Positions 16,109 to 59,468 of a DNA stretch of 63,563 nt are shown one piece after another. This stretch comes from an uncultured Methanobrevibacter sp. (lineage in GTDB: Archaea > Methanobacteriota > Methanobacteria > Methanobacteriales > Methanobacteriaceae): positions 1 through 63,563 of the forward strand of contig NZ_CAMHFP010000009.1 of NCBI RefSeq assembly GCF_946184425.1, given 5' to 3'. The notes under the pieces were generated by a model. That model was not told where the DNA came from and searched no databases. It saw only the letters and a program-made list of their open reading frames with translations. The stretch's first letter is position 1. Every line of letters starts with the position of its first letter. The position numbers and the translations under genes were made by a program.

Positions 16109-16665
16109 TGATAAGTGAAAATGGCGGACAATATTTGGTAAATCTTGCAAAAGAGACAATAATGCATTACTTGGAAACAGGAAAAAAATTAGAAATTCCT
16201 GAAAATCATCCGATAGAACTTGATGAAAAATTAGGAGTCTTTGTTACATTGAATAAAAACAATGCTCTAAGAGGATGCATAGGATATGCAGAACCTATCG
16301 AACCTGCAATTAATGCAACAATTGAAGTTGCAATTGCAGCAGCTTTCAATGATCCTAGATTTCCCGCATTGACCAAAGACGAATTTGAAAACCTGGACTT
16401 TGAAGTTACCGTCTTGACAAAACCCGAAGTAATTTATGTAGCTCATCCAAAACAATACTTTAATGAAATTGAGATTGGAAGAGACGGATTGATTGTTCAA
16501 AAGGGATATTCAAGAGGCCTGTTGCTTCCCCAAGTGGCAACAGAGAACATGTTTAATGAAGAGGAATTTTTAGAACATACCTGTATGAAAGCGGGCATCA
16601 GTGCAGACAGCTGGATGGATGAAAGCTGCGATGTCTACAAATTCCAAGGACAAATTTTCAAATAA
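16108..16665 (+). CDS. AMMECR1-domain protein
   Basis: 185 residues comprising a complete AMMECR1 domain: VFVTLNKNNALRGCIGYAEP (about 47-66) carries the conserved LRGCIG motif, followed by AAFNDPRFPALTKDEFENLDFEVTVLTKPE and GLIVQKGYSRGLLLPQVA. The biochemical role of this universally conserved domain is not established; RNA or redox chemistry has been proposed. It starts on the last base of tldD, implying co-expression with the protease. A hairpin follows the stop. Confidence 0.92.
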   Translation: MISENGGQYLVNLAKETIMHYLETGKKLEIPENHPIELDEKLGVFVTLNKNNALRGCIGYAEPIEPAINATIEVAIAAAFNDPRFPALTKDEFENLDFEVTVLTKPEVIYVAHPKQYFNEIEIGRDGLIVQKGYSRGLLLPQVATENMFNEEEFLEHTCMKAGISADSWMDESCDVYKFQGQIFK

Positions 16666-16667
16666 AC

Positions 16668-16701
16668 AATCAGTTATAACTGATTTTCTAATTCTTTTTT
16701 T
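16668..16701 (+). terminator. Hairpin plus T-tract after tldD-AMMECR1
   Basis: aatcagtt-at-aactgatt (16668-16685) is an 8-base perfect dyad followed by ttctaattcttttttt. It ends the operon. Confidence 0.65.
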
Positions 16702-16855
16702 AAACAAAATATTCCATTAGAATATTTCCATCCAATCATCTGAAAAAAATTTTAGCATATCAAACTAATCTTTTATGAAATCAACATCATATTTAAACTT
16801 CATTAAAATAGTTTTAATTTATTTTAAACGATTACAATCATTTTAACTTTTTAAG

Positions 16856-16892
16856 ATGCAAGCAAGCACTTACACTCGAAAAAATTTATATA
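16856..16892 (+). promoter_or_regulatory. Promoter with 16-base upstream element, BRE and TATA box
   Basis: atgcaagcaagcactt (16856-16871) is followed by a BRE-like cgaaaaaa and TATA box tttatata (16885-16892). The same 16-mer, with matching downstream bases, precedes another small gene at 59431-59468 on the other strand. The element sits where an archaeal activator would contact TFB/TBP. It drives the peptide gene at 16956. Confidence 0.7.
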
Positions 16893-16955
16893 CTCTCTTT
16901 CAAATATATTTGATAGAAAATACTCAATTAAATTAATCCATTAGGAGGTTAAATA

Positions 16956-17027
16956 ATGGAAAAATTTATTATATCATTAACTATTTTATCACTTGCTTTA
17001 ATATGCGCAAGTACATTACTCGGCTGA
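16956..17027 (+). CDS. 23-residue hydrophobic peptide
   Basis: The ATG at 16956 has a perfect GGAGG seven bases upstream and a strong archaeal BRE/TATA 64 bases upstream. The product is MEKF followed by about 18 hydrophobic residues ending CASTLLG, so it is either a single-span membrane peptide or a bare signal sequence. The frame stops at TGA (17025-17027). The following 130 bases hold an open stretch in another frame without a start codon, so frameshift decay of a longer secreted protein cannot be excluded. Apart from this gene the 16702-17294 interval shows nothing convincing. Confidence 0.5.
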   Translation: MEKFIISLTILSLALICASTLLG

Positions 17028-17294
17028 TGCAAACTTTATGACATGAAAATCTAACATCACTAGATGCGGAAATTGATTCCTTACAAAACGCTAAAACAAA
17101 CGATGATACTCTTTGCAAATCAATCACCAAAAAAATGAAATAATCACCACCAATTACTTAAAGAATTTAAAATTAGATTACTATATCTATTAACATTTAA
17201 TTTTACATCAAAATTTCCATAAATTTAATTAACTATCCAAATCATAACTTAACATAATAATGATTTTTAAAATAATTTACATTTTGGTGATAGA

Positions 17295-59212: not shown

Positions 59213-59374
59213 TTATTGCACATAGGAATAAGGTATGCCTCCTGTGCATGTCGGTATTATGTGAATCTTTTCGACAGTGCCGTTTTTGCCGTTGACTTTT
59301 TCAATTGAGTAGGGTTCAACTACAGGATTGTTCAAAACATCCATAATACCTTTGAGTGTATCTGACATATTCAT
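59213..59374 (-). CDS. 53-residue protein with a conserved-promoter element upstream
   Basis: The ATG at 59374 has GGAGG nine bases upstream. The product reads MNMSDTLKGIMDVLNNP, then VVEPYSIEKVNGKNGTVEKI and HIIPTCTGGIPYSYVQ, a compact hydrophilic protein with one Cys in PTCTGG. It is not a membrane peptide. No family name is known to me. Its promoter carries the same 16-base element, BRE and TATA arrangement as the peptide gene at 16956. Confidence 0.7.
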   Translation of the reverse strand: MNMSDTLKGIMDVLNNPVVEPYSIEKVNGKNGTVEKIHIIPTCTGGIPYSYVQ

Positions 59375-59430: not shown

Positions 59431-59468
59431 TATTTAAAATATTTCCGACTGCAAGTGCTTGCTTGCAT
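59431..59468 (-). promoter_or_regulatory. Promoter with 16-base upstream element (second copy)
   Basis: On the minus strand, atgcaagcaagcactt (59468-59453) is followed by cagtcggaaata and a TATA box tttaaata (59438-59431). Position by position it matches the 16856-16892 module over most of 37 bases, including TCGnAAA before the TATA box. It lies 57 bases upstream of the ATG at 59374. Confidence 0.7.

Follow-up and report, generated by a model that had tools for sequence, protein, structure and literature searches.

Archaeal regulators, as described in passages of PMC4158304 and PMC6737238, activate from sites upstream of the BRE/TATA promoter elements and repress from sites downstream of them; Ptr2, Tgr/TrmBL1 (PMC4158304) and Tar (PMC6737238) are examples of activators with a site upstream of BRE. 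In the glycolytic motif of Thermococcales, read by Tgr/TrmBL1, a palindrome activates when it lies upstream of BRE/TATA and represses when it lies downstream, and many promoters come under one regulator (according to the relevant section of PMC4158304), as would be the case for the element described here. However, Tgr/TrmBL1 belongs to the TrmB family and acts on sugar metabolism in that account (PMC4158304), whereas our candidate regulator belongs to the TetR family and would act on surface proteins. Tar (TK0271) of Thermococcus kodakarensis is likewise an activator that reads a palindrome upstream of BRE/TATA, although its palindrome, TGGACA-N8-TGTCCA, and its targets, the aromatic amino acid operons, are unlike those found here (PMC6737238, in the part that describes the motif).

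The DNA analysed (the window) is a stretch of 63,563 nucleotides from an uncultured Methanobrevibacter sp. The initial annotation had proposed that a 16-mer, ATGCAAGCAAGCACTT, precedes the promoters of two tiny genes in it, and the 16-mer is indeed present at 16856–16871 (plus strand) and 59468–59453 (minus strand), these being its only two exact copies in the whole 2,232,857-base genome (reversed-pattern control, 0). Most of the 16-mer is contained in an 18-base palindrome, TGYAAGYRAGCACTTRCA, whose core is the dyad TGYAAG-N6-CTTRCA and which stands at a fixed distance from BRE/TATA. The first copy of this palindromic element, TGCAAGCAAGCACTTACA, with half-sites TGYAAG and CTTRCA, was delimited from sequence, pattern search and alignment at 16857–16874 (plus strand), and is followed by a BRE-like sequence (CTCGAAAAAA, 16875–16884), a TATA box (TTTATATA, 16885–16892), the ribosome site GGAGG and the ORF of a 23-residue hydrophobic micropeptide (MEKFIISLTILSLALICASTLLG, 16956–17027). 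Element, promoter and ORF all lie inside a 622-bp interval between AMMECR1 and NOG1 (16665–17286, plus strand). The second copy, TGCAAGCAAGCACTTGCA, occupies 59450–59467 on the minus strand, with a BRE-like GTCGGAAATA at 59449–59440 and a TATA-like TTTTAAAT at 59439–59432, and the gene behind it, again with GGAGG, runs from its start at 59374 to 59213 (minus strand) and encodes a soluble protein of 53 residues, for which Pfam gave no match. The distance between 16-mer and TATA box, given beforehand as 13–14 bases, measures 13 in both cases, the flank CAnTCGnAAA matches at both copies, and the two ORFs have the predicted lengths of 23 and 53 codons.

Within the window alone the recurrence of the 16-mer is not significant (at three mismatches, 2 matches observed against 0.86 expected, with 17 of 100 shuffles reaching 2), and this loose test is the one point in favour of a chance match, or of a dispersed repeat without relation to promoters. 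Against it stand the results from whole genomes. A longer pattern, TGYAAGYRAGCACTTRCANNCGRAAA, has 9 sites in the window's own genome at up to three mismatches (reversed control, 0), and at up to two mismatches it is found in 69 of 138 genomes of the family, belonging to 3 of 17 genera, while the reversed controls are 0 in all 138. The TATA columns, which are outside the search pattern, recur at one fixed distance and are 87–98% conserved in the 193 sites aligned (of 194). The claim of a recurrence beyond chance is thus upheld, the 16-mer is not scattered without regard to promoters, and, with the class of gene downstream also arguing against coincidence and with no exact pattern match in a viral collection, we regard chance or a dispersed repeat as extremely improbable. 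The viral search likewise leaves no support for a viral origin of the element. One exact 16-mer in genome G011, at 1394907, has no TATA box behind it and looks like a chance occurrence.

The 16-mer itself, at up to two mismatches, occurs in 44 of 61 genomes (the window's own and 60 relatives), a count that includes chance matches in distant ones; recurring forms in the own genus include ATGCAAGTAAGCACTT and ATGCAAGTGAGCACTT. Of 112 exact-match stretches in the named collection, 111 are in Methanobrevibacter or Methanosphaera records, the remaining one being titled “uncultured bacterium”. Two of the three site-bearing genera, g1 and g23, match Methanobrevibacter records, and the third, g26, matches Methanosphaera records.

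Genes were assigned to sites by the first ATG with a ribosome site within 200 bases, which gave an ORF for 104 of 207 sites and left 103 unassigned; this survey and an earlier one were confined to distinct sites that have a TATA-like match and are followed by 400 bases or more of sequence. The assigned ORFs comprise 78 of more than 65 residues and 26 small ones (65 residues or fewer). All but one of the longer ORFs (77/78, a count without a background set of its own) begin with a strongly hydrophobic, signal-like segment, and 12 of the 26 small ORFs are hydrophobic. Under the earlier, looser rule, 91 of 119 longer ORFs were hydrophobic versus 73 of 329 background ORFs of at least 100 codons; this rule preferred frames of at least 60 codons and so miscounted some small genes, passing over the 53-residue gene of the window for the next gene. 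The predominance of signal-bearing long ORFs, together with the 26 small ones, points to a regulon that would consist mainly of surface proteins, small genes being the minority. Of the regulon of small proteins suggested by the initial annotation, the shared, regulator-type element in a fixed place is upheld; a pure small-protein regulon is set aside, since only a quarter of the assignable ORFs are small.

Products that recur are adhesin-like proteins, small surface proteins whose start resembles “AIFCVIASAGVVCAAD” and a cysteine-rich protein some 60 residues long. The last of these (MKMHKICPRCGS...) is found behind the element in several species (L031, L074, L127, L129, L172 and other loci) and has only a below-cut-off Pfam match. 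When ORFs around 147 site loci, among them duplicate copies of some places, were clustered without selection, adhesin-like and small surface proteins led and the candidate TetR described below came third (15 loci); the largest neighbour cluster matches the Ig-like domain Big_3_5. The 9 sites of the window's own genome (up to three mismatches, first-ORF rule) precede six secreted-looking ORFs, one MatE transporter and the two window genes. Many of the element-driven or neighbouring genes resemble the adhesin-like proteins described for Methanobrevibacter and Methanosphaera, for which the passages concerned of PMC2812497, PMC13135261 and PMC10658910 name no common promoter element or regulator. 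A search of the open-licence literature found no report of the element, or of a regulator or common promoter element for adhesin-like genes. In G140, five of six sites (up to three mismatches) lie on contig C2, before paralogous secreted-protein genes. The leaders behind the element in three loci with small surface-protein genes (L034, L043 and L044) are about 100 nt long and, by eye, have further sequence in common beyond the TATA box (for example ATAATTAATTGTGC), possibly an RNA element or a start-site motif.

Both types of window gene are found behind the element in other species too. Homologues of the 53-residue protein in G099 (54% identity), G003 (38%) and G117 (37%) each have the element upstream, and G036 has an ORF of 47 residues after the element that resembles the protein by eye, although a homology search at E 0.1 did not recover this ORF. 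Matches in G097, G158 and G061 (E 0.03–0.05) have no element and appear fortuitous. Elsewhere the element is followed by hydrophobic ORFs with 23 residues (L074, L104, L147) or 28 residues (L077, L285); the window's own 23-mer was compared with Pfam alone. AMMECR1 and NOG1 abut in 34 of 67 genomes of the genus (gap of 27 bp or less, counted by hand from the rows), while the window has 622 bp more, and G107 carries a different stretch of 3.8 kb, without the element, at this place. Behind the stop of the 23-residue ORF, at 17028–17140, another frame stays open for 33 codons (HENLTSLDAEIDSLQNAKTNDDTLCKSITKKMK), possibly a gene remnant. The 23-residue ORF may accordingly be no working micropeptide, having been left over as the signal peptide of a decayed secreted-protein gene, as the adjoining open frame would suggest, and as shortened signal-peptide ORFs that follow the element at other loci, such as one of 36 residues in L018, would too. 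Hydrophobic ORFs of the same length (23 residues) in the same place in L104, L147 and L074 speak for a maintained gene; two of these differ by 6 silent and 7 replacement codons, which is no strong proof of selection. We consider decay possible but, on the whole, doubtful.

The initial annotation saw no activator gene in the window, and no regulator was found there; the candidate lies on another contig of the same genome. The entry point to it was G011, where one site overlaps the start of a TetR gene. Homologues of this TetR occur in 62 of 138 genomes at 67 places, all of which were fetched, giving 66 usable loci (L204 being that of G011); the first 20 were chosen for apparent adjacency to sites and the rest were then added. 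The Pfam domain TetR_N (PF00440) scored above cut-off in all three proteins tested. The best matches among solved structures are the TetR/AcrR proteins 1vi0 and FadR 3whb (profile E about 1e-11), which share this domain with weak sequence likeness. The gene behind the G011 TetR matches ABC2_membrane_3 and DUF3533. It is presumably YhgE/Pip-like, and ORFs resembling it by eye follow the TetR in G018, G069, G157 and G108.

The TetR tree has 62 rows, copies of fewer than 150 residues having been dropped (G014, G002, G098, G029) and G160b having given no usable row. Clade B takes in 48 of these rows with support of 100/99, and includes every one of the 21 rows labelled as having an element shortly downstream, but not one of the 13 labelled as having an operator at the gene start. 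Outside clade B, the palindrome lies within 45 bp before the TetR's own start codon in 13 of 14 rows, versus 0 of 48 inside; with two short copies that are not in the tree, the count is 15 of 16, where the background of these loci would predict 0.01. This start operator mostly sits directly behind a TATA-like box, in the order TTTATATG-TAAGTAAGCACTTACTTACATT-ATG. Around clade-B genes the element lies within 400 bp in 22 of 50 loci (21 times on the gene's own strand and downstream of it), and 28 of 50 have no element within that distance. A TetR-type protein, one with relatives that bear the palindrome at their own gene start, is the likeliest reader of the element.

Presence of clade B and presence of sites go together: sites are found in 48 of 48 genomes with clade B versus 21 of 58 without it (Fisher p 7.5e-14 across the three genera, kinship ignored). 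By genus, again with kinship ignored, p is 6e-9 in g1 and 0.003 in g23, while in Methanosphaera (g26) alone the association is not significant (2/2 versus 6/18, p 0.15). These counts of clade B include broken or partial genes (G000, G014, G002, G092, G005, G134 and G026), and the single site of G018 is the start palindrome of its own TetR. The most sites seen are the 62 in the 3.1-Mb genome G091 (g23); clade-B genomes average about 6.6, G028 having 20 and G079 four.

In the window's own genome (G000) the clade-B copy, at G000:C1:21374-21931 on the minus strand, shows a stop immediately ahead of codon 11, lacks an in-frame start and is followed by an element at 25 bp. With the start and the first codons of the gene absent, the two promoters in the window may have escaped control by now; an assembly error at this point is the alternative. 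The copies in G014 and G002 have three stops each, yet sites persist. Furthermore, clade B is missing from 21 of the 69 site-bearing genomes, and the sites in these show no apparent erosion; two of them are G006, which is 99% complete and has 10 sites, and G140, which is 99% complete in two contigs and has 5 sites. Clade B is thus not a sole reader present everywhere. Sites may therefore outlive their regulator, the gene may be missing from some assemblies, or another protein may read them. On the last possibility, the element would be a surface-protein promoter element read by another factor, with the clade-B TetR a neighbour, competitor or part-time reader; intact-looking sites in genomes without clade B and sites that persist beside a broken regulator in G000, G014 and G002 agree with this, and are to be set against the occurrence of this palindrome at the gene start in 13 of 14 related TetRs, the absence of any clade-B genome without sites and the linkage in 22 of 50 loci, which together make it an unlikely explanation. 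The TetR_N genes of other kinds in genomes that lack clade B were rejected as readers, having a different recognition region; G140 has just two such genes, neither of clade-B type, and among all these genes a single one, in G140, has a site in the flank that was fetched, about 0.76 kb upstream. A mixed cluster of neighbours that we take to be MarR-like, present in 5 site loci among the matches listed, is too small and too diverse to supply a reader.

The element, its fixed spacing, the target class, the palindrome at the start of related TetR genes, the linkage and the co-occurrence can be read from sequence, while TetR binding, the sign of the control and any ligand are our inference. A dimeric clade-B TetR would bind the element directly upstream of BRE/TATA, where a bound regulator can help to recruit TBP/TFB. 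The result would be common control, probably activation, of mainly secreted or surface proteins and some small proteins in gut Methanobrevibacter and Methanosphaera. That clade B reads the element and exerts such control is a reading we hold to be somewhat better than evenly supported. In the relatives of clade B, the palindrome between the TATA box and the TetR's own start, before an ABC-2-type membrane-protein gene, would be an autorepressor layout, as known TetR/AcrR proteins lead one to expect, whereas here the operator precedes the TATA box. By the positional rule given at the outset, the layout of the relatives would mean autorepression and that of the regulon activation, and a shift of the operator from the downstream to the upstream side of the TATA box would have altered its function.

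Repression is the commonest mode of action among TetR regulators. The clade-B protein might thus read the element and repress, hindering TFB from its place beside BRE until a ligand releases it, in keeping with this habit of the family and with the autorepressor layout of the relatives. In the 193 aligned sites, however, the element lies upstream of BRE/TATA and overlaps neither, which is the place of an activator (PMC4158304, PMC6737238, in the passages on site position) and makes an activator role of the element plausible; sites also persist where the regulator is broken or missing, though a pure repressor would allow the same. We judge repression to be quite improbable.

With activation by clade B still the preferred reading, the history might be that a TetR autorepressor of gut methanogens was turned, by the move of its operator, into an activator of surface and small proteins across the genome, and that the regulon spread as blocks of element plus gene inserted between genes, for which the 622-bp block of the window is offered as an example, and decays in some lineages through loss of the regulator; we advance this tentatively, as a little short of an even chance. 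According to the relevant passage of PMC5816558, 26 adhesin-like transcripts of M. ruminantium M1 go up in response to lauric acid. By analogy with this response, and with FadR among the nearest structures, one may guess at a fatty-acid signal for the regulator.

Adhesin-like and other surface proteins have been linked, in the portions of the literature drawn on here, to the attachment of rumen and gut methanogens to their partners, and vaccination against them has been attempted. With a concrete element and a candidate TetR, the control of these proteins becomes directly testable, and the two positions of the operator, downstream of the TATA box in the relatives and upstream of it here, would offer a natural test of position-dependent change of role in archaeal regulators.
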